64,000 nt of DNA from Mycobacterium sp. DL592 (GTDB taxonomy: Bacteria > Actinomycetota > Actinomycetes > Mycobacteriales > Mycobacteriaceae): positions 1,385,434 through 1,449,433 of the forward strand of contig NZ_CP050192.1 of the NCBI RefSeq assembly GCF_011694515.1. Reading direction: 5' to 3'. Each line of letters starts with the position of its first letter. Position 1 is the first letter of the stretch. A program made the position numbers and the translations under genes. The notes under the pieces were generated by a model. That model saw nothing but the letters and a program-made list of their open reading frames with translations, did no database searches and was not told where the DNA came from. This document shows, piece by piece, positions 17,212 to 60,712 of this stretch.

Positions 17212-17228
17212 CGAGAATATTATTCTCG
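17212..17228. promoter_or_regulatory. Palindromic operator, regulon site 1
   Basis: CGAGAATATTATTCTCG is a perfect palindrome around T17220; the 15-bp core GAGAATA-T-TATTCTC is at 17213-17227. It sits 31 nt before the DUF1330 gene. Part of the set of matching sites across the island. Confidence 0.75.
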
Positions 17229-17258
17229 CGCTGACCGCGACGAAGACGAAGGAGTGCC

Positions 17259-17552
17259 ATGCCGAAGGGCTACGTCATCTTGACCGAGGAGATCAAAGAC
17301 CCGGAGGGCATGAAGGCCTACGGCCGTGCCGCGGGTGCTGCGATGGGCAACGTCACGATCCTGGCCGTCGACGCCAATCCCCAACTGCTGGAGGGCAGCT
17401 GGCATGGCCACCAGACCGTGGTGCTGGAGTTCGAGTCGGTGGAGGCAGCCCAGGCCTGGTACGACTCGGACGCCTACCGGGCCGCCCGCGAACTGCGGCA
17501 TGCCGCCGCCTACACCAACGCGGTGATCGTTTCGGGCTTTCCCGGCCGGTAG
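17259..17552 (+). CDS. DUF1330 family protein
   Basis: 97-residue small alpha/beta-barrel (dimeric ferredoxin-like) protein of the DUF1330 type: MPKGYVILTEEIKDPEGMKAY start, central GSWHGHQTVVLEFES, and the family's YDSDAYRAARELR helix. GAAGGAG lies at ideal distance from the ATG. A perfect operator palindrome lies just upstream, so it is probably the leftmost member of the TetR regulon. Members of the fold act as small enzymes or binding proteins; role here unknown. Confidence 0.88.
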   Translation: MPKGYVILTEEIKDPEGMKAYGRAAGAAMGNVTILAVDANPQLLEGSWHGHQTVVLEFESVEAAQAWYDSDAYRAARELRHAAAYTNAVIVSGFPGR

Positions 17553-17553
17553 C

Positions 17554-19491: not shown

Positions 19492-19578
19492 TACTCTCCT
19501 CTCGTTGCCTCTACCAGCGGGTTCGGCCGAATCTGCACACGGCTTGCCCAAAACGGTATTGGCATTCTCCTAAACTGC

Positions 19579-19593
19579 AAGTACGGTACTCAG
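19579..19593. promoter_or_regulatory. Operator-like site between acetoacetyl-CoA synthetase and mutase genes (weaker match)
   Basis: AAGTACGGTACTCAG matches 11 of 15 bases of the site at 60503 (GAGAACGGTACTCTC) and has a GTAC-G-GTAC core. It ends 3 nt before the mutase ATG. Weaker than the perfect sites; assigned by context. Confidence 0.4.
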
Positions 19594-19596
19594 ACG

Positions 19597-21174
<1,578 letters not shown>

Positions 21175-21579
21175 TTGACCGCACGCATTCTCGTCGCCAA
21201 GCCCGGTCTCGACGGGCACGACCGCGGCGCCAAGATCGTCGCGCGGGCCCTGCGTGACGCCGGGTTCGAAGTGATCTACACCGGAATCCGGCAGCGCATC
21301 GAGGACATTGTGTCGATCGCCCTGCAGGAGGACGTCGCGGTGGTCGGCCTGTCCATTCTGTCCGGCGCGCACATCGCACTGACCAAGCGGACCGTTGACG
21401 CGCTGCGCGAGGCCGACGCGGGGGATATCGCCGTCATCGTCGGCGGGACGATCCCGCAGAGCGACGTGCCGAAGCTGACCGAAGTCGGTGCGGCCGCAGT
21501 GTTTCCGACCGGGACGTCGCTGGACGACCTGGTGCGTGACGTGCGTGCGCTGACCGAGAAGGCGGGGGAGGCCGAATGA
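21175..21579 (+). CDS. B12-dependent acyl-CoA mutase, small (cobalamin-binding) subunit
   Basis: 134-residue flavodoxin-like B12-binding domain. The DxHxxG motif is DGHDRG at 13-18, with His15 as the lower cobalt ligand; SILSGAH (about 62-68) and GGTIP (about 93-97) are the other nucleotide-tail contacts. It starts with TTG immediately after the large-subunit stop and overlaps the LLM gene by 4 nt. Needed with the large subunit for radical skeleton rearrangement. Confidence 0.93.
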   Translation: MTARILVAKPGLDGHDRGAKIVARALRDAGFEVIYTGIRQRIEDIVSIALQEDVAVVGLSILSGAHIALTKRTVDALREADAGDIAVIVGGTIPQSDVPKLTEVGAAAVFPTGTSLDDLVRDVRALTEKAGEAE

Positions 21580-22532
21580 GACTCGGCGTGATGATCGGTG
21601 CCGAGCGCGGCGATATGGCGCGCAAGGTCACCAAGCTCCTCGAGGACATCGAGTGGGCCGAGTCCGCAGGCTTCGACACCGCGTGGATGCCGCAGGTGCC
21701 CAATGACTTCGACGCGCTGACCATGGTGTCGCTGATGGGCAACCGGACCAGCCGCATCGAACTGGGCACCGCCGTGGTGCCCCTGCAGGCGCAACACCCG
21801 GTCGCGCTGGCCCGCCAGGCGCTGTCGGTACACGCTGGTGCCGGCGGGCGGCTGGCGCTGGGGGTGGGACCCTCGCATCACTGGATCGTCCACGACATGC
21901 TGGGCCTTCCCTACGAGAAGCCCGCCGCCTACACCCGCGACTACCTCGAGGTGCTCAACACCGCGCTGGCCGGCCCGGGCGACGTCGACGTCGAGAACGA
22001 CACCTTCAGTGTGCACAATCCGACTGTGCTGGGCGCAGATCCGCCGCTGCCCGTGCTCGTCGCCGCACTCGGTCCGGTGATGTTGCGGATCGCCGGCGAA
22101 CTCACCGACGGCACGGTGCTGTGGATGGCAGACGAGCGGGCGATCGGCGACCACATCGCCCCGCGCATCACCAAGGCCGCCGAGAACGCCGGGCGCAAAG
22201 CGCCGCGCATCGTCGCCGGCATCCCGGTGTGCCTGTGCGCGAACTCCGAGATCGAGGCCGCCAAGGCACGTGCCAACCGCATCCTGGCCGAGGCCGAGAC
22301 GTCACCGAACTATCAGAAGCTGCTCGACCGCGGTGACGCCCGCGACGTCGGGGACCTGACCGCAGCCGGTGACGAGGACGCCATCCTGGCGCGGTTCCGG
22401 TCGTTCGCCGACGCCGGGGTGACCGACCTGTCGGTGCGGCTGCTCCCGATCGGGGAGACCCGCGACGAACTGATCGCCTCGAAATATCGGACCCGCGAGG
22501 TGATTTCGCAGCTGGCTGCCGAAATCCGATGA
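21576..22532 (+). CDS. LLM class (F420-dependent type) oxidoreductase
   Basis: 318-residue luciferase-like TIM barrel. MRLGVMIG at the start, ELGTAVVPLQAQHPVALARQALSV (strand 3) and RLALGVGPSHHWIVHDMLGLPYEKP are characteristic of mycobacterial F420-dependent members related to MSMEG F420 reductases. The LPVLVAALGPVMLRIAGELTDG block is the C-terminal cofactor region. Coupled by ATGA overlaps on both sides within mutase-LLM-CoA-transferase. Likely reduces or oxidises an alcohol, ketone or enone of the pathway; F420 rather than FMN use is an inference. Confidence 0.88.
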   Translation: MRLGVMIGAERGDMARKVTKLLEDIEWAESAGFDTAWMPQVPNDFDALTMVSLMGNRTSRIELGTAVVPLQAQHPVALARQALSVHAGAGGRLALGVGPSHHWIVHDMLGLPYEKPAAYTRDYLEVLNTALAGPGDVDVENDTFSVHNPTVLGADPPLPVLVAALGPVMLRIAGELTDGTVLWMADERAIGDHIAPRITKAAENAGRKAPRIVAGIPVCLCANSEIEAAKARANRILAEAETSPNYQKLLDRGDARDVGDLTAAGDEDAILARFRSFADAGVTDLSVRLLPIGETRDELIASKYRTREVISQLAAEIR

Positions 22533-23575
22533 GCGGGCCATTGGCGGGTATCCGCATCGTCGAAGTCGGCTCCATGCTGGCCGGGCCGTATGCCACCATG
22601 ATGTTGGCCGATCTCGGGGCCGAGGTCATCAAAGTCGAGGCGCCCGGCGGTGAGATCTCCCGCCAGGTGGGCGACAGTTACTTCGCCAGCCTGAACCGCA
22701 ACAAGCGCAGCATCTGCCTGGACCTCGGTTCCGAAGCGGGCCAACGCACACTCGGTCAACTGGCCGCAGACTCACACGCGCTGCTGGTCAACATGAAACC
22801 GTCGGTCATCAAGAAGCTCGGCCTCACCTACGAGGCGCTGCGCCGGCACAACGAACGCATTGTCTGCGTGGCGATCACCGGATTCGGGCTCGACGGCGGC
22901 GACTACCCGGCCTTCGACTACGTCATCCAGGCCGCCACCGGGGTGGCGGCGATGACCGGCGATCCGGACGGGCCGCCTGTGCTGCCGGGCTATTCGTCGG
23001 TCGACAACTCCACCGCGCTGACCGCGGCGCTGGGCCTGCTGGCGATGATCGTGTCCGGCCAGGGCGGGCAGGTCGAGGTGTCGCTGCGCGACGTGATGCT
23101 CTCTCAGCTCAACTACAAGGCGTCGGCCTATCTCAACGACGGCGTCCACCCGCGCCGCCACCCGTTCGGGGCGCACTCGTTCTACGTTCCCGCCCAACTG
23201 TTTCCGACGGCCGAGGGTTACCTGGCGCTGTTCATCACCCACGACGGGTTCTGGCGGTCGTTCGCCGCCGAGGCCGGTATCGAGGGATTCCCGACGATGG
23301 CGCAGCGATCGGCCCGGCGCGACGAGGTCCTCGATATCGTCACCCGCGCCCTGGCCGGTGACACCGCGGCGGGCTGGGAAGCGCGGCTTCGGCCGCTGGG
23401 CATTCCGGCGGCCGCGGTGCGGTCGCTCCCGGAGGCACTCGAGGCCACCCCGGATGCCGTGGTGTCCGCGGGCGAGTACCGGCTGGTCGCCAGCCCGGTC
23501 AAGGTCACCGGCTACCGGCCCGACTACCGGCCGCCGCCGCGACTCGACGAGTTCGGCGCCGCTCAGTCGTCGTAG
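22529..23575 (+). CDS. CaiB/BaiF family CoA-transferase
   Basis: 348-residue class III CoA-transferase. The start MSGPLAGIRIVEVGSMLAGPYATMMLADLGAEVIKVE region, NRNKRSICLDLGS and ITGFGLDGGDYPAFDYVIQA motifs are standard. The usual nucleophilic Asp lies in the FDYVIQAATG segment. It moves CoA between acids without ATP. At 348 residues it is shorter than the other two copies in the window (402-404). Its last 13 bp overlap the convergent ferredoxin gene. Confidence 0.92.
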   Translation: MSGPLAGIRIVEVGSMLAGPYATMMLADLGAEVIKVEAPGGEISRQVGDSYFASLNRNKRSICLDLGSEAGQRTLGQLAADSHALLVNMKPSVIKKLGLTYEALRRHNERIVCVAITGFGLDGGDYPAFDYVIQAATGVAAMTGDPDGPPVLPGYSSVDNSTALTAALGLLAMIVSGQGGQVEVSLRDVMLSQLNYKASAYLNDGVHPRRHPFGAHSFYVPAQLFPTAEGYLALFITHDGFWRSFAAEAGIEGFPTMAQRSARRDEVLDIVTRALAGDTAAGWEARLRPLGIPAAAVRSLPEALEATPDAVVSAGEYRLVASPVKVTGYRPDYRPPPRLDEFGAAQSS

Positions 23576-23946: not shown

Positions 23947-23961
23947 GAGAATACAGTTCTC
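23947..23961. promoter_or_regulatory. Palindromic operator, regulon site 2
   Basis: GAGAATACAGTTCTC lies in the 87-bp gap between the divergent ferredoxin (start 23904) and acyl-CoA ligase (start 23992) genes. A second half-like match (GATAGTATGTTCTC, 23969-23982) follows closely and includes a plausible -10 element TAGTAT. Confidence 0.7.
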
Positions 23962-23991: not shown

Positions 23992-25407
23992 ATGTCGATG
24001 GAGTTGGCACCGAACCATGTGCGAGTGGACCGCACCATGACCGACACGACGGTACTTGCGTTCGAGGATCGCACATACACACGCTCTCAGCTCGACGCCG
24101 AATCCGCCGGTCTGGCCGGGACTTTGGCCCGACGAGGTGTCCGGGCCGGCGGGCGGGTGGCCGTGATGTCCTCGAACCGACCGGAATTCGTCGTCGCCGT
24201 CCAGGCGATCTGGCGGCTGGGGGCCGCGGCGGTGCTGCTCAGCCCGGCCTGGAAGACCGCCGAGGTCAGCCATGCGTTGGCGGTGACCGCCGCCGGCCAC
24301 GCAGTTGGTGACAGTCCGGTACTCGCCGAGCTGATGCCGATGGTGCACCTCGACGACCCGATCGTCGCGGCCGACGCGCAGCCTGCGACACCGGATCCCG
24401 ACACCGATGCGGTGCTGGTCTTCAGTTCGGGAACCACCGGTATGCCCAAGGCGGTTCGCCATACCCACCGCTCGCTGTCGGCCGCTGTCCGGCATTGGCG
24501 CACCGCATTGGGTGTGACAACGACCGATCGCATGCAGGTCGTCACGCCGCCGTCGCACATCCTCGGTCTGCTCAACATCCTGACCGTCCTCGATGCGGGG
24601 GCCTGGATGCGTCTGCACCGGCGCTTCGACATCGATGCGATGTTGCGGCACATCGCCGAGGACCGCATCACCATCGAGATGGCGGTCGCCCCGATCGCGC
24701 TGGCGATCGCGTCGCACCCGGACCTGAAGAACTACGACCTGTCCTCGCTGCGCTACATCATGTGGTGCGCGACGCCCGTCACCCGCAGTGTCGCCGACGA
24801 GGTGACTGCCAGGACCGGCGTTGGCTGGATATCGGCCTACGGCACCAGCGAGGTTCCGGTGATCGCGTGCTGCCCACTCGGCGAGCCGCGACTGGACACC
24901 GTCGGGAGGCCCGTCCCCGGCGTGGACGTCCGTATCGCGGACTCCGGTGAGATCCAGGTCCGTTCGGAATCGGCCATGGCTGGCTATCTTCCGGACAGCG
25001 AGACGGCCGCGGTGCTGCGCGACGGCTGGTACCGGACCGGCGACATCGGCCATCTCGACGATTACGGCTGGTTGCGCATCACCGACCGGCTCAAGGAGAT
25101 GGTCAAGGTGCGCGGTTTCCAGGTCGCGCCCGCCGAGGTCGAGGCGGTGCTGCACGGCCATCCGGCGGTGCGGGACTGCGCGGTGTTCGGCGTTGCCGAC
25201 GGACTCGACGGCGAGGCGGTGATCGCCGCCGTGGCCACCGCGCACCCGGTGACCGCCGACGAGCTGACGGACCTCGTCGCCGAACGGCTGGCCTCCTACA
25301 AGCGCCCCCGCGACATCGTGTTCGTCCCCGAAATCCCGCGCCTGCCTTCAGGTAAGGCGCTGCGGCGAGTTCTGAAGGAGCAGTATGGACGTACGTCTCA
25401 CCGATGA
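23992..25407 (+). CDS. Acyl-CoA synthetase (FadD-type ANL ligase)
   Basis: 471-residue adenylate-forming ligase. P-loop VFSSGTTGMPKAVRHTHRS near residue 143, A8 region GWYRTGDIGHLDDYGWLRITDRLKEMVKVRGFQV and the catalytic lysine in LPSGKALRRVLKE at the C-terminus. Somewhat short for FadD (usually 500-550). It opens an operon with two acyl-CoA dehydrogenases and a hydratase, so it probably activates a pathway acid. Start is uncertain: ATG 23992, 23998 or 24037 (MTDTTVLAFED) are all possible. Confidence 0.9.
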   Translation: MSMELAPNHVRVDRTMTDTTVLAFEDRTYTRSQLDAESAGLAGTLARRGVRAGGRVAVMSSNRPEFVVAVQAIWRLGAAAVLLSPAWKTAEVSHALAVTAAGHAVGDSPVLAELMPMVHLDDPIVAADAQPATPDPDTDAVLVFSSGTTGMPKAVRHTHRSLSAAVRHWRTALGVTTTDRMQVVTPPSHILGLLNILTVLDAGAWMRLHRRFDIDAMLRHIAEDRITIEMAVAPIALAIASHPDLKNYDLSSLRYIMWCATPVTRSVADEVTARTGVGWISAYGTSEVPVIACCPLGEPRLDTVGRPVPGVDVRIADSGEIQVRSESAMAGYLPDSETAAVLRDGWYRTGDIGHLDDYGWLRITDRLKEMVKVRGFQVAPAEVEAVLHGHPAVRDCAVFGVADGLDGEAVIAAVATAHPVTADELTDLVAERLASYKRPRDIVFVPEIPRLPSGKALRRVLKEQYGRTSHR

Positions 25408-26200
25408 GCAACAGCAGCTGCGTGACGCGGCGGCCAAACTGGCCGACGACCTCGGTCTGGGCTCGGTTGCCGACCTCGACGACGAGATCCGGCGGGCGCG
25501 GCTGGACAAGACCGTCGAGTCCACCGGCTGGCGCTGCCTGCGCACTGACGGTGCCTCCGGTGTCGAGGTGGCGATCGTGGCCGAGGAGTTCGCCCGCGGC
25601 CTGGTCGATGTCCCGTACCTGGGTCCGGTTCTGGCCGACGATCTGCACCGGCTGCTCGGCCGGGCGCCGCAGCGGGCCGAGACCGGGCGCGGCGGCGTCG
25701 ATCTGACGGGAAGCCTTGCCGGAGTGGTCGAATCGCCGCCTGAGCTGGCCGACCTCGGGGATGAGGACGCCGACCGCTGGTACGCGCTGGCATTGACGGT
25801 GACGTCTGCGGAGCTGGTGGGCGCCGCGCGCGGTGCGCTCACGCTGGCCACCGAGTACGCCAAAGTCCGCGCACAGTACGGCGCGACGATCGGTTCCTAT
25901 CAGGCGGTGGGGCACCTGCTCGCCGAGGGCCTGGCTCTCATCGAGGGCTCGGTCAGCGTGCTGCGGCACGCGGCCTGGGCGGTCGACGAGCTACCGTCGT
26001 GCGAGGCGGTCGAGGCAGCCAAGGTCGCCAAGATCTATTGCGCGCGCGCCGCTTTGACGGTGTGCGAGACGTCGATCCAGGTTCATGGTGGTATCGGCAA
26101 CACCTGGGAATGCCTGGCGCACGTGTACCTGCGCCGGGTGCTGGCCGTCACCGAGACATGGCCAGTCAAGCTGAAGGAGTTGACCATTGGACTTTCGTGA
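25385..26200 (+). CDS. Acyl-CoA dehydrogenase, short subunit of a heteromeric pair
   Basis: 271 residues, about 100 shorter than a standard enzyme, with the N-terminal and middle domains reduced. C-terminal helical features remain: EYAKVRAQYGATIGSYQAVGHLLAE and VHGGIGNTWECLAHVYLRR. In mycobacterial steroid pathways such short FadE proteins form alpha2beta2 heterotetramers with a full-length partner. The partner here is the next gene, which overlaps it by 14 nt. It overlaps the ligase gene by 23 nt. Confidence 0.88.
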   Translation: MDVRLTDEQQQLRDAAAKLADDLGLGSVADLDDEIRRARLDKTVESTGWRCLRTDGASGVEVAIVAEEFARGLVDVPYLGPVLADDLHRLLGRAPQRAETGRGGVDLTGSLAGVVESPPELADLGDEDADRWYALALTVTSAELVGAARGALTLATEYAKVRAQYGATIGSYQAVGHLLAEGLALIEGSVSVLRHAAWAVDELPSCEAVEAAKVAKIYCARAALTVCETSIQVHGGIGNTWECLAHVYLRRVLAVTETWPVKLKELTIGLS

Positions 26201-27275: not shown

Positions 27276-27278
27276 CAC

Positions 27279-28900: not shown

Positions 28901-28927
28901 CTCTCAACTTGAGAGAATACTATTCTC
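28901..28927. promoter_or_regulatory. Composite operator, regulon site 3
   Basis: Two perfect palindromes overlap by three bases: CTCTCAACTTGAGAG (28901-28915) and GAGAATACTATTCTC (28913-28927). Both lie between the SDR start (28874) and the GTPase start (28970). The second is an exact consensus copy. Confidence 0.78.
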
Positions 28928-30590: not shown

Positions 30591-30626
30591 GAGAGTACTA
30601 CTCTCAGGCGCGAGAATTACGTTCTC
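30591..30626. promoter_or_regulatory. Tandem operators upstream of the TetR gene, regulon sites 4 and 5
   Basis: GAGAGTACTACTCTC (30591-30605, perfect palindrome) and GAGAATTACGTTCTC (30612-30626) have centres 21 bp apart, two helical turns, so two dimers would bind on the same face. Both are in the 164-bp gap upstream of the TetR gene. Confidence 0.78.
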
Positions 30627-31494: not shown

Positions 31495-31497
31495 GTC

Positions 31498-34278: not shown

Positions 34279-34280
34279 CC

Positions 34281-34628
34281 TCAGACCACCGGCTCCCGGA
34301 CGATGGTGACCCAGGCCGCGCCGCTGTCGAGAACGCGGGGCTGTTTCCAGACCTCCACCGGGAACGACACCATCACCACCGACTGCATGAGGTGCATCAG
34401 TCGCTTGGCGTCATCGGGCATGTCGTGCAAGGGAAAACGGGCATCGAGGTACACCATGACCTCTTCAAGCCGCGCCGTCCCGGCATCGTAGAGATCCTGC
34501 ATCTCGGCCATCGTGGCGGACAGCCGCTTGGCGTAGCGCTCCGGCTCGGTGGCCAGGATCCAGTCGCTGAACCGCTCCAGGTCGGCGAACTCCGCGGGCA
34601 GCAGACCCGTGGTCGTGGTTTCAGACAT
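34281..34628 (-). CDS. Hypothetical protein coupled to the Rieske oxygenase
   Basis: 115 residues, mostly helical, beginning MSETTTTGLLPAEFADLERF and ending VTIVREPVV, with no cysteines and no membrane segment. It overlaps the Rieske oxygenase gene by 8 nt and lies 2 nt before the amidohydrolase start, so it is made with them. No family recognised; an oxygenase accessory role is only a positional guess. Confidence 0.7.
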   Translation of the reverse strand: MSETTTTGLLPAEFADLERFSDWILATEPERYAKRLSATMAEMQDLYDAGTARLEEVMVYLDARFPLHDMPDDAKRLMHLMQSVVMVSFPVEVWKQPRVLDSGAAWVTIVREPVV

Positions 34629-51793: not shown

Positions 51794-52687
51794 TCATCGG
51801 TCCAGGAAGTCCAGGATGGCCGGAGCCGCCTGCACCCAGGTGTCGAACATGTTGAAGTGCTTGACCTTCCCCGACGCCCGGTCTTCACCGGCGCGCTCCC
51901 AGGCATCCTCCGGCCACGGCGGATCGATCAGCTCCGAGCCCTTGATCAGGCAGTTCACCTCCAGCGACGTGCGCTTGGGGTGATCCCAGTCGTTCTCGCC
52001 GCCGCGGATGATGAGGGTGGGCACCTTGATGTCGCCGAACAGTTCGTCGTCGACGCCCGGGATCGCCTGGCTGGGCTTGGGCACGAAGGCGTTGAGCCAG
52101 CGCAACATCACCCGCAGGAACTCGTCGGTGTCCATCGCCAGGATGCGGTCTTTGTTGGCCGGGTTCTCGGCGATCCGTTCTTTCCACTCGTCCACGTGCA
52201 GAAGGCCTTTGATGCCCAGGCCGCGGACGGCAAGGATGCTGGGGACCAGATAGTAGGAGCCCAGGACGAAGGACCCGTAGACGCCGCCGACGATGTTCCA
52301 GGTGACCAGCTTGGTGGCGATCTCGGGGTAGAGGATGGTGGTCAGGATCGAGTCCCTGGCGCCGCCGGAGCCGCCGGCGATCACACACGGCCCGATACCC
52401 AGTCCGGTGATCAGGCCGTGCAATGTCTCGGCGCGCATGTGCGATTCGCTCTGCCCGTAGAACTGCAGGTCGGACTTGCCGCAGTTGGGCCGGTCCCACA
52501 GCAGGACCCGGTAACCGCCCTTGACCAGTTCCTCGGCCAGCGGGCGCAGGCCCTCGATGTCCTTGCTGTAGCGGCCGCCCGGGGTCAGCGCGATGAAGTC
52601 GCCGCGCTCACCGAGGATTTCGTAGACGACATTGCCGCCGTTGATCTCCATGACGGCCTCGCCGTCGCGGAGTTGCAGCGTGCTCAT
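51794..52687 (-). CDS. Alpha/beta hydrolase (C-C bond or ester hydrolase type)
   Basis: 297 residues from the ATG at 52687 (ATGA with the Rieske ferredoxin stop). Motifs VLLWDRPNCGKSD, nucleophile elbow VIAGGSGGARDSILTTIL, and late acid/His positions fit the alpha/beta-hydrolase fold (often annotated as meta-cleavage product hydrolase-like). Last gene of the amidohydrolase operon from 55348. Expected to act on a small acyl or diketo substrate. Confidence 0.85.
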   Translation of the reverse strand: MSTLQLRDGEAVMEINGGNVVYEILGERGDFIALTPGGRYSKDIEGLRPLAEELVKGGYRVLLWDRPNCGKSDLQFYGQSESHMRAETLHGLITGLGIGPCVIAGGSGGARDSILTTILYPEIATKLVTWNIVGGVYGSFVLGSYYLVPSILAVRGLGIKGLLHVDEWKERIAENPANKDRILAMDTDEFLRVMLRWLNAFVPKPSQAIPGVDDELFGDIKVPTLIIRGGENDWDHPKRTSLEVNCLIKGSELIDPPWPEDAWERAGEDRASGKVKHFNMFDTWVQAAPAILDFLDR

Positions 52688-53076
52688 GCCATCACGAGCA
52701 CGTCGTCGCCCACCACGCGTACGGGGTAGGTCCGGATGCTCCACTCCGGTTTGACGGCCGTGGTTCCGGTGGCGAGCTCGAAACCCCACTGGTGCCAGGG
52801 ACAGTAGATGAACTCCATGTCCCGCACCATCACTGCGTCACCGGGAACGCTCTCGTCGACGATATTGCGGCCGCGGGGGCGCCCCGAGCACAGCGGGCCG
52901 CCCTCGTGCGGGCAGTAGTTGGCGATCGCGTAGAAGGTGCCGTTGACGTTGTACACGCCCACACCGTGCCGGCCGATCGGCACCAACTTGTGTGTGCCGG
53001 GCGGGATTTCGTCGACCGTGGCCACCACGTGCTCACGGCCCTGGGCAAGGCGGGGCTGCTTGTCAGGAGTTGTCAT
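52684..53076 (-). CDS. Rieske [2Fe-2S] ferredoxin
   Basis: 130 residues. Ligands Cys55/His57 (CPH) and Cys92/His95 (CPWH), separated by about 35 residues, define a soluble Rieske ferredoxin or oxygenase N-domain-like protein. The internal CSGRPRG adds a nearby Cys. Could pair with the Rieske oxygenase encoded at 34621, which lacks a ferredoxin in its own operon. Overlaps the hydrolase gene by 4 nt. Confidence 0.92.
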   Translation of the reverse strand: MTTPDKQPRLAQGREHVVATVDEIPPGTHKLVPIGRHGVGVYNVNGTFYAIANYCPHEGGPLCSGRPRGRNIVDESVPGDAVMVRDMEFIYCPWHQWGFELATGTTAVKPEWSIRTYPVRVVGDDVLVMA

Positions 53077-53080
53077 GTGC

Positions 53081-54226
53081 TCAGAAGACCCGCATCTGGC
53101 CTTCGATGGCCGGCACGGTGTCCGACAGCTTGTAGGTCTCGATGCCGTTGCGGAACATCACTGCCTCGCGGGCGTGTTCGGGAAGGTGCTTGACCAGCCA
53201 GCGCGGGTCGTCGTAGGTCCAGTGCGGGTAGTCCGAGGAGAACAGCAGGATCTTCTCGCATTCCATCCACTCGAAGGCCCGCAGCAGTTCGGTCTTGTCT
53301 TCGGGGTAGTCCAGTGGCTGGGTGGTGAACTTGATGTGATCCTTGACGTACTCGCTGGGTTTGCGCTTGATGTCCACCCAGCTTTTGCGGGCTTCGTAGA
53401 TGGCGTCCATCCGCCACATCAGCGGCAGGATCCAGTTGAAGGCGTGCTCTACGAACACGATTCGCAGGGTGGGGTAGCGGTCGAAGACGCCGTCGAAGAT
53501 CAGGCTCATCACCTGGTTGGCCGCGGTCAGCGAGTAGCTGACCATGAAGTCGTGGTTGTAGCTCGGGAAGCCGACCGGCGGGATCGGCAGGGTCTCGTAG
53601 ACCCCGCGGGACAGGTGGCAGCTCACGACGATGTCGTGTTTGGTGGCGGCCTGCCAGATCGGGTCGTATTTCGGGTCGCCCCAAGACGGGCGGGGTTCGG
53701 CCTTGATCAGTGTCTGCACCATGTAGGGGTGCCCGGCCCACTTCTCGATTTCGCGAGCCGCGCCCTCGGGATCCTCGATGGCCACGCAGATCGACCCGCG
53801 CCAGCGCTCGTGCCAGTTGTTCGTGCTGTCCAGCCAGTTCTCGGCCTGCCAGGCGTTGTGCGCGTAGGACAGCGCGGCGGTGGCTTCCGGGAGGCGGCAC
53901 GTGCCGTGCGTGGGTTCCAGCACGGCGATGTCGGCGCCGGCTTCCATGATCGCCTGTCGGAAGGCCAGATCAGGGTCGGTGCAGGCGAATTCGCCGTCGT
54001 CGGGGAAGGTGTCGACGCGCATGGCGTAGGCATGCGCGTAGTCGGGTGCGTCGTAGTAGATCAGCTCACCGACCCGGTGATTCATGAAGTACTTGCTGCG
54101 CAACGGCTCCGGGATGTACTCCTGCAGCACACCGCGGCGCGGCACCGGGTGGACGTCGGAGTCGACACAGCGCACGGCGACGCGTTCGGTGGGGGTGACC
54201 CGGTCCCGGGTTCCAATGACAGTCAT
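53081..54226 (-). CDS. Amidohydrolase (ACMSD-like), copy with D-x-H motif DSDVHP
   Basis: 381 residues. VRCVDSDVHPVP gives the metal D-x-H motif, HDIVVSCHLSR the mid-barrel His, VEHAFNWILPLMWRMD another conserved block and LFSSDYPHWTYDDP the catalytic Asp/His. Close relative of the protein encoded at 54257 (shared WILPLMWRMD/ITPFIWRMD pattern), and both match amidohydrolase_2. GAAGGAG-like leader is absent but the ATG at 54226 follows purine-rich sequence. Role: hydrolysis or decarboxylation of a carboxylated intermediate. Confidence 0.92.
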   Translation of the reverse strand: MTVIGTRDRVTPTERVAVRCVDSDVHPVPRRGVLQEYIPEPLRSKYFMNHRVGELIYYDAPDYAHAYAMRVDTFPDDGEFACTDPDLAFRQAIMEAGADIAVLEPTHGTCRLPEATAALSYAHNAWQAENWLDSTNNWHERWRGSICVAIEDPEGAAREIEKWAGHPYMVQTLIKAEPRPSWGDPKYDPIWQAATKHDIVVSCHLSRGVYETLPIPPVGFPSYNHDFMVSYSLTAANQVMSLIFDGVFDRYPTLRIVFVEHAFNWILPLMWRMDAIYEARKSWVDIKRKPSEYVKDHIKFTTQPLDYPEDKTELLRAFEWMECEKILLFSSDYPHWTYDDPRWLVKHLPEHAREAVMFRNGIETYKLSDTVPAIEGQMRVF

Positions 54227-54256
54227 CGTGGTCTCTCCTTGTACTTACCCTGCGAC

Positions 54257-55348
54257 TCAGCGTGTTCCGACGGGGGCCGGGATGTCGATGCCATACAAGC
54301 CGGCGGCGTTGCGCCAGCAGACCTTCGCCCGCTGCTCGGCGGTCCACGCCGCGGGCAGGGACCGGGCGTCGCCGCAGTGCCAGTGCGGGTAGCTGGACCC
54401 GAACATCAGCATGTCGTCCTTGCCGGTGAATGACAGCCATTCGTCGGCGAACTCGGCGTCGCCGGGACCGTCGAGGCTGTTGTGGATGAAGTAGACGTGG
54501 CCGGGCAGGTAGTCGCTGGGCATCTTCGGCGCCCACGGGGTCTGCTCCAGGTGCGGGCGGCCGAAGCAATCCATCCGCCAGATGAACGGAGTGATCATGT
54601 CGGCGGCGCCGTCCGCCCAGACGAACTTGAGGTCGGGCATCCGCTCGAACACGCCCTCGGCGATCATGTTCAGCAGGTGGTAGACGTAGTTGAGCGACAT
54701 GAAGCCCAGGTACTGCTCGAAGGTTCGGGTGTGTCCCGACGGTGTCGGCGGGAACGCGATGCCTTCGCCCGGCTCGATGTGAGTGGCCACCGGCAGCCCC
54801 GCGTCGACCGCGGCCTCCCACAGCTCCCAGAACTGTGGCTTGCCGTAGAGCTCCCGTGATTGCAGCGGGATCCCGATCTGCACGACCTGCGGATGGTTCT
54901 TGTATTTGTCGATCTCGCGCAGCGCGCCGGTGATGTCGTCAGGGTTGACCCGGATGGTGCCCCGGAACCGCTGGCCGTGCTCGGGGTGCTCCAGCCAGCG
55001 CGACACCATCATCTCGTTGTGGGCGGCCAGGATGGCGGTGCCCAGATGGCGGTCGGGCATGATGCCGCGGCCCATCGGATGCAGCACCGCCACGTCGACA
55101 CCGCGGTCGGCGAACAGATGCTTGGCGACGATATCGGGATCGGATCCGGGGTATTGGCCGTCGGGACCGCGGGAACCCTTGACGTACTCACCGCCGGGAG
55201 CGCCGTACCAGTCCATCTCGTAGTCGGGGAAGCCACGGCTCTTGAACGGCTCGCGCATCACCGTCCGCAGTTCGGGCGTCGACCCGAAGAAGATGTGCAC
55301 ACTCGCATCGATGAGGGGCGTCGTCGTCCCGTCGTGGTGCTCGATCAC
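54257..55348 (-). CDS. Amidohydrolase (ACMSD-like)
   Basis: 363 residues from a GTG at 55348 with GGAAGG at good spacing; a TTG at 55396 would add 16 residues directly beside the operator. PLIDASVHIF gives the first metal motif, LPVATHIEPGEG the His, FVWADGAADMITPFIWRMD the barrel block and LMFGSSYPHWHCGDA the catalytic region, where the usual Asp of SDYPH is Ser-Tyr (GSSYPH), a notable substitution. First gene of an operon with a second amidohydrolase, Rieske ferredoxin and hydrolase. Confidence 0.9.
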   Translation of the reverse strand: MIEHHDGTTTPLIDASVHIFFGSTPELRTVMREPFKSRGFPDYEMDWYGAPGGEYVKGSRGPDGQYPGSDPDIVAKHLFADRGVDVAVLHPMGRGIMPDRHLGTAILAAHNEMMVSRWLEHPEHGQRFRGTIRVNPDDITGALREIDKYKNHPQVVQIGIPLQSRELYGKPQFWELWEAAVDAGLPVATHIEPGEGIAFPPTPSGHTRTFEQYLGFMSLNYVYHLLNMIAEGVFERMPDLKFVWADGAADMITPFIWRMDCFGRPHLEQTPWAPKMPSDYLPGHVYFIHNSLDGPGDAEFADEWLSFTGKDDMLMFGSSYPHWHCGDARSLPAAWTAEQRAKVCWRNAAGLYGIDIPAPVGTR

Positions 55349-55399: not shown

Positions 55400-55414
55400 A
55401 AGAATAGTGTTCTC
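55400..55414. promoter_or_regulatory. Operator, regulon site 7
   Basis: AAGAATAGTGTTCTC lies directly upstream of the minus-strand amidohydrolase operon and matches the right half of the consensus well. It is in the divergent gap to the acyl-CoA dehydrogenase pair at 55571. Confidence 0.65.
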
Positions 55415-55570: not shown

Positions 55571-56563
55571 GTGCTACTGGAATTCGACGCTGATCAGCGT
55601 TTGTGGCAGGACACCGTGCGAGATGCCGTCGCCAAGCAGTGCCCGGCGTCGCTGATCCGCGGCATCGCCGAGAACGGCGTGGACCCCGCGCCGTTGTGGG
55701 GCAGCTACGTCGAGCAGGGCTGGACCGAGCTCAACGAACCCGCGACGGCGGTCGAGTTGGCGATCGTCCTCGAGGAACTCGGCCGGGCCACCGACCCCAC
55801 CCCGTTCCTGGCCACCGTCACGCAGTTCGCACCGCTGGCCGGTGACCGCTACGACCCGGAGAAGGCCGGCGCTGCGATCTACGACGGAGTCACCGCCCAC
55901 CGCGACGCCGACGGCTGGGTGCTGCGCGGAACCGCCCGCCACGTGCTCGACGGGGACCGTGCCGAGAAGCTCGCGGTGGTCACCGACGGTGGGGTCTTCC
56001 TCGTCGACTGGTCGGCGATCACCGTCACCCGCGCCACCGTCTTCGACCCCGCACTGCATGTGGCCGACGTGAACTTCGCCGACGTGCACGTCCCCGACAC
56101 CGATCGGCTGCGTACCGACCCGGAGCGCGCCCGCCATGTCGCGCTGATGGGGATCGCGATCACGACGGTCGGCGCCTGCCAGCGGGTGCTCGACCTGGCG
56201 TTGCACCATGTCCGCGACCGCCACCAGTTCGGCGCGCCGATCGGGTCGTTCCAGGCCGTGCAGCACAAGGCCGTCGACATGCACGTCGCCATCGAGCGGG
56301 CCCGGGCGCTGGGTTACTTCGCGGCGCTGACGATCAGTGCCGACGACCCGCGCAGGCGGCTGGCCGCCGCGATGGCCAAAGCCGCCGCGGGCGACTGCCA
56401 GTCGGTGGTGTTCCGCCATGGTCTGCAGCTCTTCGGCGCCATGGGATTCACCTGGGAGAACGACGTTCAGTTCGCGCTCAAGCGCGCCAAGGTCGGCGAG
56501 CTGCTGCTCGGCGGCGCGGCCGAGCATCGCGCGATCATCGCCGAGGAATACGAGGAGGACTGA
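55571..56563 (+). CDS. Acyl-CoA dehydrogenase, short/divergent subunit of a heteromeric pair
   Basis: 330 residues from a GTG at 55571. The N-terminal domain is present but reduced and the C-terminal LALHHVRDRHQFGAPIGSFQAVQHKAVDM and GLQLFGAMGFTWENDVQFALKRAK segments are standard. The FAD-site motifs EPGxGSD and KVWTS are missing, as in non-catalytic partners of alpha2beta2 FadE complexes. It overlaps the long subunit gene by one base (TGATG). Confidence 0.88.
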   Translation: MLLEFDADQRLWQDTVRDAVAKQCPASLIRGIAENGVDPAPLWGSYVEQGWTELNEPATAVELAIVLEELGRATDPTPFLATVTQFAPLAGDRYDPEKAGAAIYDGVTAHRDADGWVLRGTARHVLDGDRAEKLAVVTDGGVFLVDWSAITVTRATVFDPALHVADVNFADVHVPDTDRLRTDPERARHVALMGIAITTVGACQRVLDLALHHVRDRHQFGAPIGSFQAVQHKAVDMHVAIERARALGYFAALTISADDPRRRLAAAMAKAAAGDCQSVVFRHGLQLFGAMGFTWENDVQFALKRAKVGELLLGGAAEHRAIIAEEYEED

Positions 56564-57741
56564 TGCAACTCACCTTTGATCCCGATGTCGAGGAGTTCCG
56601 CAGGCAGTTCAGCGACTTCCTCGACGCCAACCTGCCCGACGAGGCGCAGACTCTGGAGCGGCCGCGGTCGGTGTCCCACATGCCGGCCTGGGCGCGGCGC
56701 TGGCAGCGGCTGTTGTTCGACAACGGCTGGCTGCTGCCGGGCCAGCCGCCGGAGTTCGGCGGCCGCAACGCGACCATCCTGCAGCAGTTCGTCCATCTCG
56801 AGGAGCTGTGCCGTCGCCGCATCTACCACAGCTTCAACCCGCAGGGCGTCAATATCGTTGCCGCCTCGCTGATTTCGTTCGGATCCGACGAGCAGAAACA
56901 GCGCTGGGCGGTTCCGGTACTCAAGGGTGAGAAGACCGCGTCGCTGGGGATGAGCGAGCCCAGTGCGGGTTCGGACCTGGCCTCGCTGCGCACCAGGGCC
57001 GTGTTGGACGGCGACCACTTCGTGGTCAACGGGCAGAAGGTGTGGACCTCGGGTGCCCATGACGCGGACTTCCTGCTGACATTTGTGCGCACCGACCCCG
57101 ATGCGCCCAAGCACAAGGGCATCAGCGCGCTGATCATCCCGACCGATCTGCCCGGAGTGGTCTGCCGGCCGTTCCCCTCGATCTGCGGGATCGACGACAA
57201 GGACTTCAACGAGGTCTTCTTCACCGATGTCCGGGTGCCGGCCGAGAACCTCGTCGGCCCACTCAATGGCGGGTGGGGAGTGGCCAACGGGTCACTGGGC
57301 CACGAACGCACCATGATGTGGCTGGGCTTCGCCGACCGGATCGCCAACATGATCGGCGACTTCACGCCGCGCACACCGCTGGAGAAGGACCAGTACGCAT
57401 CGATGATCATGGACTACCAGGCGCTGCGCCTGATGGGCTCGGCCGGGCTGGCCAAGGCCGCGCGGGGCGAGGTCGACGTCGCGTCCGTGTCGGTGCTCAA
57501 GCTGTTCGGCTCCGAAGCCGAGCTGCGGGCTTCCGAAACCGCTTTGTCCGCAGCGGGTTCCGAGGGGCTGATCCATCCGTCGACCACCGGACCGTACGCA
57601 CACATGAACCTCGACCACTACTTCGCCAGCTGGTTCGAGCGGCATGCCCGCAGCTTCTCCGGCACCATCGCAGGCGGCACTTCAGAGATCCAGCGCAACA
57701 TCATCGCCCAGCAGGTGCTGGGCCTGCCGCGCGGCAGGTAA
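56563..57741 (+). CDS. Acyl-CoA dehydrogenase, long subunit of a heteromeric pair
   Basis: 392 residues. GMSEPSAGSDLASLRTRAVLDG and GQKVWTSGAHDADFLL are FAD/substrate motifs, SLGHERTMMWLGF carries the isovaleryl-type Glu and IAGGTSEIQRNII has Gly at the MCAD position. RSVSHMPAWARRWQRLLFDNGWLLPGQPPEFGG is the typical N-terminal helix region. Works with the preceding short subunit. Ends before a large hairpin and a convergent P450 gene. Confidence 0.93.
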   Translation: MQLTFDPDVEEFRRQFSDFLDANLPDEAQTLERPRSVSHMPAWARRWQRLLFDNGWLLPGQPPEFGGRNATILQQFVHLEELCRRRIYHSFNPQGVNIVAASLISFGSDEQKQRWAVPVLKGEKTASLGMSEPSAGSDLASLRTRAVLDGDHFVVNGQKVWTSGAHDADFLLTFVRTDPDAPKHKGISALIIPTDLPGVVCRPFPSICGIDDKDFNEVFFTDVRVPAENLVGPLNGGWGVANGSLGHERTMMWLGFADRIANMIGDFTPRTPLEKDQYASMIMDYQALRLMGSAGLAKAARGEVDVASVSVLKLFGSEAELRASETALSAAGSEGLIHPSTTGPYAHMNLDHYFASWFERHARSFSGTIAGGTSEIQRNIIAQQVLGLPRGR

Positions 57742-57817: not shown

Positions 57818-59179
57818 TCAGTCGATGACCGCGGCCTCCTTGCGTTCGGTGATCGGGCGGGCCAGCTCCTGCTCGTCGCAGATGCGCTGCAGCTTCTCCA
57901 GCGTCTCGTCCAATCCGGGACCCAGCCGCTTGCCGGGGGTGAACGTCGCGGGCAGTTTCCGCATGCCCTGGATCACCCCGATGGTGTCGTAGTGCACCGT
58001 GCCTTCGGGGTCGCAGCGGTAGTCCGGCATCCGGTCGAGCACGCTGGTGAGCATGTCCTTGAACACCGTGCGGGCCACATTGGAGCCGATGCAGCGGTGC
58101 ACGCCGATGCCGAAGCTGAAGTGCCGGTTACCCTTTCGGTCCAGGATCACGTCGTTGGGATCGTGGAACACCGAGGGGTCGCGGTTGGCCATCGCCCACG
58201 AGATCCACACCCGCTCGCCCTCCCTGAACCGGTGGTCTTCGAGCTCGACGTCGTCGGAGAAGGTCCGGCCGTCGCCGGGGGCTGGGGTGTAGAACCGCAG
58301 GAACTCCTCGGTGGCCGGGTCGAGCAGGGTGTCACGTTCGCGGCTGAGCCGCTCACGCTCGTCGGGATGCTCCGAAAGCCATTCCAGCGCATGGGCGGTC
58401 AGCGCGGTGGTGGTGTCGAAGCCGCCGCCGATGATCAGGCCCAGCATGCCCAGGATCTCCATGTCCGGTGCGGGCTCGCCGTCGACGCGCAGGTTGATCA
58501 GCGCGTTGAGCAGTCCGGGCCGCGGCTTGTCTTTCGCCTCGTGCATCCGGGTGATCAGGTCGATGCCCATCTCGCGGTGCTGCTGGGCCACCCGTTCGGC
58601 GTCGGGGGAGTGTTCGGGGGTGTAGATCGCCGCGTGGGTGGGCTCGCAGTAGATGGTCCAGTTCTTCAGCGGGATACCGAGCAATGCCATCGTCAGCACG
58701 GCGGGCACCACGTTGGCCAGGTCGTCGATGAAGTCGATGCGGCCCGACTCGATCTTCTCGTCGATACTGGCCCGCACGATCTCGTGCACGAACGGCTCCC
58801 ACCGGGCCACCGCCGCTGGCGACAGGTAGGGGTTGAGCACGTTGCGATAGATGCGGTGCTCAGGGTCGTCCATCTCGAGCATGCCGCCGCGGGTCACCAC
58901 CCGCCGGCTGGTGGGAATCGAAATCCCCTTGTAGCCGCGCCGTTCTCCGTTGATGTCGTGGTCGTTGGAGATGTGCGGGCACCGGGCCAGCTCGAAGACC
59001 GCGTTGCTGCCGGCCGCCACCCAGTGGCCGCCATAGGTGTCCGACCATGCGATCGGGCACTTCTCGTGCATCTCCTCGGTGATCTTCTCGAACTGCACCC
59101 GGTACTCCGGGGTGTGTCGGTCGAAGTGGTAGCGAGGTTGCTTGCGCTCGTCATCGGTGGTGACGTCGTCGACGCTCAA
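57818..59179 (-). CDS. Cytochrome P450
   Basis: 453 residues from a TTG at 59179 with AAGGGAG eight bases upstream; a longer in-frame ATG at 59260 would overlap the ferredoxin gene. The heme segment HFSFGIGVHRCIGSNVAR (Cys near residue 370), I-helix IIGGGFDTTTALTAHALEW, LEMDDPEHRIYRNVLNPYLSP and ATEEFLRFYTPAPGDGRTF (ExxR region) are present. It forms a P450-ferredoxin-SDR operon with the next two genes upstream. Probable hydroxylase of the pathway substrate or a downstream alcohol. CYP family not assigned. Confidence 0.94.
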   Translation of the reverse strand: MSVDDVTTDDERKQPRYHFDRHTPEYRVQFEKITEEMHEKCPIAWSDTYGGHWVAAGSNAVFELARCPHISNDHDINGERRGYKGISIPTSRRVVTRGGMLEMDDPEHRIYRNVLNPYLSPAAVARWEPFVHEIVRASIDEKIESGRIDFIDDLANVVPAVLTMALLGIPLKNWTIYCEPTHAAIYTPEHSPDAERVAQQHREMGIDLITRMHEAKDKPRPGLLNALINLRVDGEPAPDMEILGMLGLIIGGGFDTTTALTAHALEWLSEHPDERERLSRERDTLLDPATEEFLRFYTPAPGDGRTFSDDVELEDHRFREGERVWISWAMANRDPSVFHDPNDVILDRKGNRHFSFGIGVHRCIGSNVARTVFKDMLTSVLDRMPDYRCDPEGTVHYDTIGVIQGMRKLPATFTPGKRLGPGLDETLEKLQRICDEQELARPITERKEAAVID

Positions 59180-59223
59180 GGCGCTGTCTCCCTTGACTTC
59201 TGGTGGGGCGGTGAGTGTGGCGG

Positions 59224-59421
59224 TCAGTCCTCGTCGATGAGGATTGCCTGTTCCGGACAAGACTGTGCGGCCTCCCGGACGAGGGCCTCCTGCTCGGCCG
59301 GGACCACTTCGGTCACCGGAGACGAGCTGCCGTCAATGTCGCTGAGCACGAACATCTCTGGAGCGATCATGGCGCACAGGGTGTGCCCCTGGCAGCGGTT
59401 CTGGTCTACCCGAACCTTCAC
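59224..59421 (-). CDS. [3Fe-4S] ferredoxin (P450 partner)
   Basis: 65 residues with Cys10, Cys16 and Cys55 (SCPEQA) in the P450-ferredoxin pattern. Lies between SDR and P450 genes, 44 nt upstream of the P450 start. One of three ferredoxins of this type in the island, each next to a P450 or reductase. Confidence 0.93.
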   Translation of the reverse strand: MKVRVDQNRCQGHTLCAMIAPEMFVLSDIDGSSSPVTEVVPAEQEALVREAAQSCPEQAILIDED

Positions 59422-59457
59422 GGCTTATCCTTCCGTTCGTCGCTGTCCTGCCGGGTG

Positions 59458-60318
59458 TCAGACGTGGTAGTCGTACCACTTCAAGTAGCCGCCGGCGTCG
59501 ACGCGCAGCTGCATACCGGTGACGTAGCGGGCCTCGTCGGAGGCCAGCCACAGCACGGCATTGCTGATGTCCAGTGGCTCGACGTAGTTGACCTTCATCG
59601 CCTGCTGGACACCGAACACGGGCTCGGCGTCGGCCCGGGTCGGGTGTTCGAGATCGGGACGGAACGAGCGGTACATCGGTTCGCTCTGCAGCATGTCGGT
59701 GTTGCAGTTCGTCGGGTGCACGACGTTGGCCCGGATTCCCCGCACAGCTACCTCGGTGGCCAGATCGTGGACGTAGTTCGACAGCAGACGCTTGGCCACC
59801 ATGTAGGACATGCCGCCGGGATCAGAGCCCGGGTTGGCCTTCTGGTGGGCGTCCATCAGTGCCGCGGTGGAGCCGGTGGCGATGATCGAGGCGCCCTCCT
59901 CGAGATGCGGCAGCGCCACCTGGATCGCATTGATGGTCCCGATCAGGTTGGTGTTGATCACGTCGCACCAGGCCTGCAGGGGCGGCTCGCCCTTCATCCC
60001 GGCGATGCCGGCCTGGGCCACCACGATGTCGACCTTGCCGAACTCGGCGAGCCCGCGATCGAGGGCATCCTTGAGCTGGGCGGCCTCCCGGACGTCGGCC
60101 TGCACCGTGACGATGCCGCGGCCGGTCTTCTTCACCAGCTCCGCGGTCTCCTCCAGATCCTCCGGGGTGGCCATCGGGTAGCCGATGGTCGCGACGTCCT
60201 TGCACAAGTCGATGGCGATGATGTCGGCGCCCTCTTCGGCCAGCCGCAGGGCATGGCTACGTCCCTGTCCGCGTGCGGCACCGGTGATGAATGCGACTTT
60301 GCCTTGGACTCGTCCCAC
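59458..60318 (-). CDS. Mycofactocin-coupled SDR family oxidoreductase
   Basis: 286 residues. AFITGAARGQGRSHALRLAEEGADIIAIDLC is the signature start of the mycofactocin-dependent SDR group (nicotinamide non-exchanging alcohol dehydrogenases that pass electrons to mycofactocin). TGSTAALMDAHQKANPGSDPGGMSYMVAKRLL contains the Ser and Tyr-x3-Lys catalytic set with the family-specific insertion, and the C-terminal YVTGMQLRVDAGGYLKWYDYHV is typical. Likely oxidises the alcohol made by the coupled P450. Confidence 0.93.
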   Translation of the reverse strand: MGRVQGKVAFITGAARGQGRSHALRLAEEGADIIAIDLCKDVATIGYPMATPEDLEETAELVKKTGRGIVTVQADVREAAQLKDALDRGLAEFGKVDIVVAQAGIAGMKGEPPLQAWCDVINTNLIGTINAIQVALPHLEEGASIIATGSTAALMDAHQKANPGSDPGGMSYMVAKRLLSNYVHDLATEVAVRGIRANVVHPTNCNTDMLQSEPMYRSFRPDLEHPTRADAEPVFGVQQAMKVNYVEPLDISNAVLWLASDEARYVTGMQLRVDAGGYLKWYDYHV

Positions 60319-60712
60319 GGTGTGTTCCTTTCAATTGCTCTGGAGGATCGGATGTTTGAGCGGCGTGCTCAGGCCGGTGCGGTGGAGCTGCGGACGTGCG
60401 GGTGCGTCGCCGGCCTGGACGCGATCGTCACGTCGGGGACAGGGGAGCGCAGAGATTCCAGCCGACACGATCTCACTGTCCAAGAATCTCCCTTTCTGGA
60501 ATGAGAACGGTACTCTCGGTGTGACGCATTTCGCAAGACACATCGGCTCGATGTGTCTAACTGCGGGAATGGTTCGGCAACGCGGCGAGCGAGCGGCCCG
60601 CACAGGTCGTGACGGTGTGCCTCGAGGCGGCTTGAGTTCTCGTTCCCCGAATGTATGATTCGCCGAAGATGAGAATCAAGTTATCCAAAACGCTGGGAGA
60701 GGCTGGATTCCT
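60319..60712. promoter_or_regulatory. Divergent intergenic region with two operator-like sites
   Basis: 394-bp gap between the SDR-ferredoxin-P450 operon (minus) and the aldehyde dehydrogenase operon (plus). It holds GAGAACGGTACTCTC at 60503-60517 (good match) and GAGAATCAAGTTATC at 60671-60685 (weaker), one near each promoter. No convincing ORF. Confidence 0.6.

Follow-up and report, generated by a model that had tools for sequence, protein, structure and literature searches.

A recurrent palindrome and the candidate TetR regulon of a catabolic island in Mycobacterium

The DNA analysed here (the window, 64,000 nucleotides) corresponds to bases 1385434-1449433 of the one-contig 5.10-Mb genome of Mycobacterium sp. 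DL592. It holds part of an island whose genes, by family search, encode acyl-CoA dehydrogenase-like subunits in pairs, CoA ligases, family III CoA-transferases, thiolases, P450s, a Rieske-type oxygenase, a B12 acyl-CoA mutase and a MeaB-like GTPase, NuoF- and ferredoxin-like proteins, F420 and mycofactocin-type oxidoreductases and several amidohydrolases. A 15-bp palindrome recurs in gaps between these genes, and a preliminary description of the window had taken it as the mark of a regulon under the TetR-family protein encoded at 29882-30538 (here TetR1). This was confirmed in part: the palindrome is a real regulon marker, and two weak copies failed. Judged from sequence and conservation, it is highly probable that TetR1 binds GAGAAT-N3-ATTCTC operators as the repressor of a catabolic island of ~97 kb and of one distant gap.

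The palindrome in the window and in the genome

The eight good copies reported before (17213, 23947, 28913, 30591, 30612, 36504, 55400 and 60503) were all found again. With up to three mismatches the pattern GAGAATMNKATTCTC matched 13 times in the window versus 2.23 matches expected (standard deviation 1.63), and in 100 dinucleotide shuffles the maximum was 9, so that 13 was never reached. To keep training apart from the finding in the window, a scoring matrix was trained on nine distinct site sequences from 80 relatives, each lying no further than 200 bp upstream of a tetR orthologue; since these relatives are close, several of the nine are letter-identical to window sites or to their reverse complement. 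The eight good copies and the copy at 60671 scored 13.9 to 29.2 bits with this matrix. These nine, the only window sites with at least 13.9 bits (a line chosen after the scores were known), are all intergenic, and the top coding match had 10.3 bits. Intergenic DNA makes up 6.5% of the window by our gene calls, which gives a chance probability of p ~2e-11 for nine out of nine. The copies had been placed in promoter gaps and not in genes, and so these nine were found. When 80 kb to the right were added (5.9% intergenic), 14 sites of at least 13.9 bits were present, again all intergenic, and the coding maximum stayed at 10.3 bits.

The consensus was derived from 63 distinct sites, selected with at most two mismatches to the pattern given before, GAGAAT(A/C)-N-(T/G)ATTCTC, and reads GAGAAT-N3-ATTCTC (GAGAATnnnATTCTC). 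The arms of the former pattern were retained but its fixed middle was not, the three central bases being nearly free. Four weaker copies had been listed as well. The one at 60671 stands (13.9 bits), the one at 36674 is a conserved block with a low score (8.2 bits), and those at 19579 and 55504 were rejected as operators (-2.3 and -2.5 bits, respectively); position 19579 falls in another very conserved element, described below.

The extent of 46 kb proposed for the regulon is too small. To the right of the window there are five more (81404, 81470, 94276, 111590 and 114340 in window numbering), and the whole set, 9 of whose 14 sites are inside the window, extends over ~97 kb with 11 gaps. Another exact copy was found 1.2 Mb away at genome position 166021, where it separates an APH-like operon from a CoA-transferase gene. 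Scanning of the whole genome with three mismatches gave 194 matches per strand versus 38 for the reversed-pattern control; because of this number, weak matches in the genome by themselves mean little and are mostly background. Sites with at most one mismatch to GAGAATNNNATTCTC, however, are concentrated in the island, which holds 9 of the 12; the others are at 166021, 1019453 and 2829126. For sites with at most two mismatches, 50 of the 65 were considered, which covers the genome except its last part as far as two-mismatch sites are concerned.

TetR1 and the palindrome across genomes

TetR1 matches PF00440 TetR_N with 30.7 bits (cut-off 24), as is required of a TetR family member. An orthologue (E<=1e-75) is encoded in 245 of 297 Mycobacterium genomes; at E<=1e-20 the number is 249, with G009, G098, G156 and G274 matching weakly. 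Residues 57-72, the region of the recognition helix, are invariant across 20 aligned TetR1 proteins. In an order-wide sample (249 genomes, 68 genera, E<=1e-60) TetR1 was found in two genera, one of them Mycobacterium, and both TetR1-bearing genomes of the second genus have a site upstream.

Several further TetR1-like proteins came up. G022, G101 and G181 each have two close copies, 73-77% identical to TetR1 and at separate places. The contig L077 (5.9 kb), assigned to an Acidobacteria bin, carries a TetR1 of 82% identity together with the operator and is probably a misbinned contig of mycobacterial or related origin. The genome under study encodes a TetR1 paralogue (L213:1414-2085, genome 2816018-2816668) with 36% identity and the same SLRSFY stretch; a related site, GGTAATGTCATTCTC (13.9 bits), starts 39 bp before its called start, and the adjacent gene is amidohydrolase-like by eye. 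The invariant residues 57-72 and the site of this paralogue both speak for TetR1 as the binding protein. Cross-talk between this paralogue and TetR1 is possible.

The palindrome is linked to tetR1 by its position, by co-occurrence and by conserved targets, and TetR1 is the best candidate regulator. A scan of the collection found 385 relatives, and the figures for named loci refer to the best 80. In all 80 a palindrome lies within ~160 bp upstream of the TetR1 orthologue, that is in the gene's own promoter region as in the window, with at most one mismatch to the previously described pattern in 68 loci, two in 7 and three in 5. One Nocardia and one Aldersonia locus are included, and in their flanks examined the second TetR protein of the window (TetR2, 42868-43506) was unmatched. 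Of the 245 genomes that encode a TetR1 orthologue, 238 have two or more exact copies of GAGAATNNNATTCTC, compared with 1 of the 52 without it (Fisher p ~2e-48, uncorrected for kinship). The sole genome with two or more copies but no TetR1, G148, is a 700-contig draft; a single copy without a TetR1 orthologue occurs in G044, G070, G274 and G278. Site-bearing genomes mostly have 4 to 8 exact copies and the reversed-pattern control 0 or 1. TetR1 is accompanied by fewer than two exact sites in seven genomes (G026, G056, G063, G089, G178, G206 and G286), which also have neither the second TetR nor the IclR-type protein introduced below at E<=1e-50; these exceptions look as if the island had been lost.

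For a comparison of targets, 20 stretches from five other genomes, picked around exact sites, were used. They contain 33 sites of at least 17 bits, none within a called gene, and 27 of these precede tetR1 or a gene whose orthologue in the genome under study has a site too. Conserved targets are the gap between ferredoxin and CoA ligase, the SDR gap, the operon that ends at 36482 together with the amidohydrolase at 36719, the acyl-CoA dehydrogenase pair 55571/56563, the amidohydrolase at 111628, the gap between IclR and hydrolase, and the APH-like gene of the distant site. As for the other six, L145:2042 lies before the orthologue of 92172, a gene which here follows the site-bearing 93040, three are found just after tetR1 (twice in L150, once in L156) and two have unmatched neighbours (L148 and L153). 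In 1.77 Mb of loci (10.6% intergenic) 267 sites of at least 18 bits were intergenic and a single one, at the margin of a called gene, was coding; between 13 and 18 bits the numbers were 66 and 14 and between 8 and 13 bits 134 and 113. The counts are not independent trials, because all loci were chosen around tetR1 or an exact site and related species have sites in common. Of the intergenic sites with at least 16 bits and two called neighbours, 178 of 272 lie between divergent genes.

TetR1 had been described as the only regulator whose gene is flanked by copies. This holds inside the window but not outside, where an IclR-type gene (80634-81374, window numbering) has two copies in front of it. 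The sites might be bound by the IclR-type protein or by TetR2, both of which are kept in nearly the same genomes as the sites (TetR2 in 229 and IclR in 228 of 297 at E<=1e-50, all with at least two sites). IclR proteins also bind short palindromes, the IclR-type gene faces the sites 81404 and 81470, and the same gap has a site in G020. Among the 239 genomes with at least two exact sites, however, 10 lack TetR2, 11 lack IclR and 1 lacks TetR1; these differences are few but point in the same direction. G139, G265 and G290 have neither protein, yet they have TetR1 and 4, 5 and 2 sites, respectively. Further, the gap before TetR2 contains no site of at least 5 bits, while the palindrome precedes tetR1 in every named locus, and binding by TetR2 or the IclR-type protein in place of TetR1 is therefore improbable. 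The IclR-type gene and an alpha/beta hydrolase gene divergent from it (together L139:16634-18369) have the two sites between them 66 bp (3 x 22) apart, and IclR could be a second layer of control.

Some observations weigh against TetR1 as the repressor acting at these sites. Beyond island and window, 35 sites with no more than two mismatches were listed, and ten of them, 166021 included, score at least 13.9 bits; for two of these ten, 166021 and 2816018 (before the TetR1 paralogue), the placement in gene or gap is known. A control with permuted matrix columns (200 permutations) averaged 32, 9.8 and 3.0 matches at 5, 8 and 11 bits and reached maxima of 146, 55 and 21, compared with 51, 23 and 15 observed. 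Since permuting the columns of an AT-rich palindrome can itself yield a common motif, this control was weak and not decisive, and we relied on intergenic placement and conservation. In four of the seven exceptional genomes a site of at least 13 bits lies within ~420 bp upstream of the TetR gene, in two of these at least 200 bp away, and in the other three (L169, L171 and L172) there is no site of at least 9 bits in the ~420 bp upstream. In distant loci the operator is mostly found ~136 bp before tetR1 and closer to the divergent dehydrogenase gene, which makes self-repression less certain there. A structure model of TetR1 had a mean predicted local distance difference test (pLDDT) score of 75.6, lowest near the recognition helix, and superposed poorly on structures in the PDB (template modelling score ~0.5, root-mean-square deviation ~12). 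In favour of TetR1, the nearest folds include acyl-CoA-binding FadR proteins and KstR2. Model and fold search suggest little beyond a 'TetR, FadR-like' protein.

Operators, target operons and a composite element

The predicted operators and the operons next to them are compiled in Table 1. Sites before orthologues of the neighbours of 23947 are present in G034, G020 and G216, and the SDR orthologue next to 28913 is preceded by a site in G034, G020 and G151. Orthologues of the targets of 55400 have sites in G034, G020, G216 and G235, although the spot differs in some; distant relatives often encode one or both of the dehydrogenases 55571..57741 divergently to tetR itself. For the sites 60503 and 60671 the analysis covered the window genome. 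The gap of 112 bp after 39199 may break the operon 36719..42768.

Table 1. Predicted operators, candidate regulator, predicted target operons and associated elements (window numbering; scores from the matrix described in the text).
Feature	Position	Strand	Score (bits)	Context or gene content
Operator GAGAATATTATTCTC	17213..17227		29.2	Between divergent 16851-17186(-) and 17259-17552(+)
Operator GAGAATACAGTTCTC	23947..23961		23.1	Between ferredoxin 23563-23904(-) and CoA-ligase operon (+)
Operator GAGAATACTATTCTC	28913..28927		28.6	Between SDR 28110-28874(-) and MeaB-like GTPase 28979-29839(+)
Operator 1 of the tetR1 promoter GAGAGTACTACTCTC	30591..30605		21.2	Pair also in close relatives
Operator 2 of the tetR1 promoter GAGAATTACGTTCTC	30612..30626		21.4	21 bp from operator 1
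Operator GAGAATCACATTCTC	36504..36518		21.8	Upstream of operon 36482 to 30703(-) and of 36719(+)
Candidate low-affinity partner site	36674..36688		8.2	Near start of 36719
Operator AAGAATAGTGTTCTC	55400..55414		20.1	Between amidohydrolase 54257-55348(-) and acyl-CoA dehydrogenase pair 55571-57741(+)
Operator GAGAACGGTACTCTC	60503..60517		18.9	Between SDR 59458-60318(-) and aldehyde dehydrogenase 60713(+)
Operator GAGAATCAAGTTATC	60671..60685		13.9	Centre 35 bp before 60713(+)
TetR1, proposed repressor	29882..30538	-		TetR-family regulator, 218 aa, PF00440 TetR_N
Composite element GGTATTGGCATTCTC-N7-GCAAGTACGGTACTC	19555..19591	+		In front of mutase operon; contains one ATTCTC half-site
Mutase operon, membership uncertain	19678..23575	+		Acyl-CoA mutase large and small subunit, F420 oxidoreductase, CoA-transferase; no canonical operator
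Predicted target operon	23992..28043	+		Acyl-CoA ligase, two acyl-CoA dehydrogenase-like subunits, enoyl-CoA hydratase; site 23947
Predicted target operon	30703..36482	-		Two acyl-CoA dehydrogenase-like subunits, SnoaL-like, Xaa-Pro dipeptidase-like, 115 aa protein, Rieske-type oxygenase, carboxymuconolactone-decarboxylase-like; site 36504
Predicted target operon(s)	36719..42768	+		Amidohydrolase, acyl-CoA dehydrogenase, CoA-transferase, thiolase, acyl-CoA dehydrogenase; sites 36504, 36674
Predicted target operon	51794..55348	-		Two amidohydrolases, Rieske-type small protein, alpha/beta hydrolase; site 55400
Predicted target	55571..57741	+		Acyl-CoA dehydrogenase pair; site 55400
Predicted target operon	57818..60318	-		Cytochrome P450, small protein, mycofactocin-type SDR; site 60503
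Predicted target operon	60713..63411	+		Aldehyde dehydrogenase, CoA-transferase; sites 60503, 60671

The relation of operator and promoter is clearest at 36504. In the window and 12 close relatives both arms of this site are identical while the middle varies, and they also share a TTGACC on the minus strand, its end 36 bp upstream. The operator may therefore lie at or just past the transcription start, on our reading of the box; TTGACC was clear at this target only, and no general -35/-10 rule emerged at the target promoters. The palindrome itself could also be a promoter core, with TATTCT as a -10-like hexamer on both strands, instead of a repressor site. Indeed TATTCT or AGAATA is contained in many copies, and in a quarter of cases the site centre is at most 52 bp from the start codon. 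The median distance from site to start codon is 82 bp, however, the two arms at 36504 are about equally conserved, the TTGACC box would put that operator near or after the transcription start, and the sites are nearly absent in genomes without TetR1. A promoter core is thus extremely unlikely, and we keep to the repressor site.

The block at 36674 has a core, AAACTAGCTTCTC, that is identical in 13 of 13 sequences (the window and the same 12 relatives), whereas the position scores at least 6 bits in only 6 of the 13 rows; from its conservation and location a low-affinity partner site is possible. A second copy of at least 5 bits, usually weaker, was searched for around 101 dissimilar strong sites, and the only recurrent offset was 20-22 bp (+22 in 14 cases, +21, +20 and -21 in three each, -22 in one; eight other offsets were single cases). 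Many of these pairs are the tetR1 promoters of relatives. A match at 29864 (11.6 bits), located between convergent gene ends, was left uncounted as an operator; judged from sequence, it may be the remnant of a site which many relatives keep just after tetR1.

The sites had been said to cover all operons of the island except those led by the NuoF-like and the second TetR genes. This does not hold for the gene pair 17554(-)/19678(+), which has no canonical copy of the palindrome. Instead, the composite element stands in front of the mutase operon. With scores of 7.6 and -0.3 bits it is not a canonical operator; its first part is identical in seven of seven relatives examined and the second part is alike, and in G216 the element recurs before the orthologue of 21576, a gene of the same operon. 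The 5.1-Mb genome contains GGTATTGGCATTC exactly two times, in both cases in the island (19555-19591, and 77156-77192 in window numbering, L139:13156-13192), and each occurrence consists of GGTATTGGCATTCTC with a second 15-mer 22 bp further. The pair at 77156-77192 is letter-identical in G034 and intergenic by our own gene calls only. A tentative and rather doubtful idea is that the operators are graded, from perfect single palindromes over tandem pairs at 20-22 bp to degenerate pairs of the same pitch (such as GGTATTGGCATTCTC-N7-GCAAGTACGGTATCC in front of the B12 mutase operon), and that promoters would open in the order of site quality, under a genus-wide, apparently unnamed repressor of a catabolic super-island of ~100 kb in about four fifths of the Mycobacterium species sampled, whose substrate nobody has assigned.

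The two-subunit B12 mutase of this operon (19678-21579) is close to 2-hydroxyisobutyryl-CoA mutase in the PDB, which was the best match for the large and the third for the small subunit. No substrate was assigned, because the stretch before GYDSD is unlike that of both this enzyme and methylmalonyl-CoA mutase; going by its sequence, the mutase, with the MeaB-like GTPase (28979-29839) nearby, perhaps acts on a new substrate. Another operon without operator encodes a 552-residue protein (47997-49655) that is thiolase-like from about residue 166 to near the end, its ~165 N-terminal residues being without a family. The distant target (L143:3253-9225, genome ~161-167 kb) encodes an APH-like protein, an SDR, an acyl-CoA dehydrogenase, another TetR and an alcohol dehydrogenase and is divergent from the CoA-transferase gene; its site is retained in G151, G216 and G235.

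Proposed mechanism and relation to known regulons

According to the proposed model, a TetR1 dimer would bind the GAGAAT-N3-ATTCTC operators and repress its own gene as well as the operons flanking ten other gaps of the island and the one distant gap. Since the operators are placed in promoters and mostly between divergent genes, one site could serve both directions. In the tetR1 promoter the copies are 21 bp apart, about two helical turns, and two dimers could bind to one face of the DNA. The set of enzymes suggests CoA-based degradation of a hydrophobic, branched or cyclic compound, and by analogy to KstR2 and FadR, by gene content and by the fold neighbours of TetR1, a CoA-thioester intermediate of this pathway is the likely inducer that releases TetR1.

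The model resembles described mycobacterial steroid regulons. KstR (PMC1995591) is likewise a TetR repressor of a large, clustered catabolic regulon with a short palindrome, many sites in divergent gaps and a site in its own promoter. KstR2 shares the CoA-thioester inducer (HIP-CoA, with a C/D-ring regulon; PMC6593523) and acyl-CoA dehydrogenase targets, and is among the fold matches of TetR1. The Rv0767c orthologue G155_05115 is also a TetR protein, with a palindrome, motif X, beside 14 operons, of which 12 were up >3-fold on phytosterol (PMC6593523); P450, SDR and aldehyde dehydrogenase genes are common to motif X and the set described here. KstR3 of Mycolicibacterium neoaurum, encoded with atf1, chsH4 and chsE6, is a TetR repressor of sterol side-chain genes (PMC10398937). 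The sites could in principle belong to one of these four. However, the consensus GAGAATnnnATTCTC differs from both the KstR core TnnAACnnGTTnnA (PMC1995591) and the KstR2 operator AAGCAAGNNCTTGCTT (PMC8228715), in agreement with the preliminary description. TetR1 is weakly similar to KstR (E 4e-4 over ~100 N-terminal residues in a search of PDB sequences), and the gene set of KstR2 is another one. The best TIGR04284 (Rv0768) match in the genome is at 521898 (941 bits), and the TetR gene adjacent and divergent to it, L205:709-1302, taken as the Rv0767c orthologue by neighbourhood alone, is distinct from tetR1, lies elsewhere and has a different palindrome: its product has no BLASTP match to TetR1 at 1e-3, and its gap contains no site of at least 8 bits but GGACA/TGTCC palindromes instead. 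The second TIGR04284 match over the cut-off (865963) has no TetR1-like gene in the 4.4 kb examined. Deletion of kstR3 raised four clustered genes, unlike the large set found here (PMC10398937), and the neighbours of tetR1 in this genome and in 19 loci compared are other than the thiolase-type aldolase, DUF35 protein and reductase genes in the operon of kstR3, a comparison of gene context and not of sequence. It is very unlikely that the sites are those of KstR, KstR2, KstR3 or Rv0767c. TetR-type FadR proteins of Bacillus and Thermus are acyl-CoA-binding, as proposed here, and among the nearest folds, but they share ~18% identity and a weak superposition with TetR1 and control another regulon.

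The palindrome was not found in the accessible parts of published work searched by motif letters and topics; the letters GAGAAT in PMC8228715 and PMC5401885 belong to primers in the matching passages. Motifs were predicted for 30 mycobacterial TetR regulators, with logos given as images (PMC4482099), and the palindrome may be identical to one of these. The proposed TetR1 regulon is apparently new but of a known kind.

In the case of KstR, one palindrome defined a regulon and opened up cholesterol catabolism. Here, an equally clear palindrome and a candidate regulator, encoded in 245 of the 297 Mycobacterium genomes sampled, delimit the genes that belong to a large mycobacterial pathway. They provide a gene list, an operator for a biosensor and, by derepression or by screening of compounds for induction, a direct route to the substrate.

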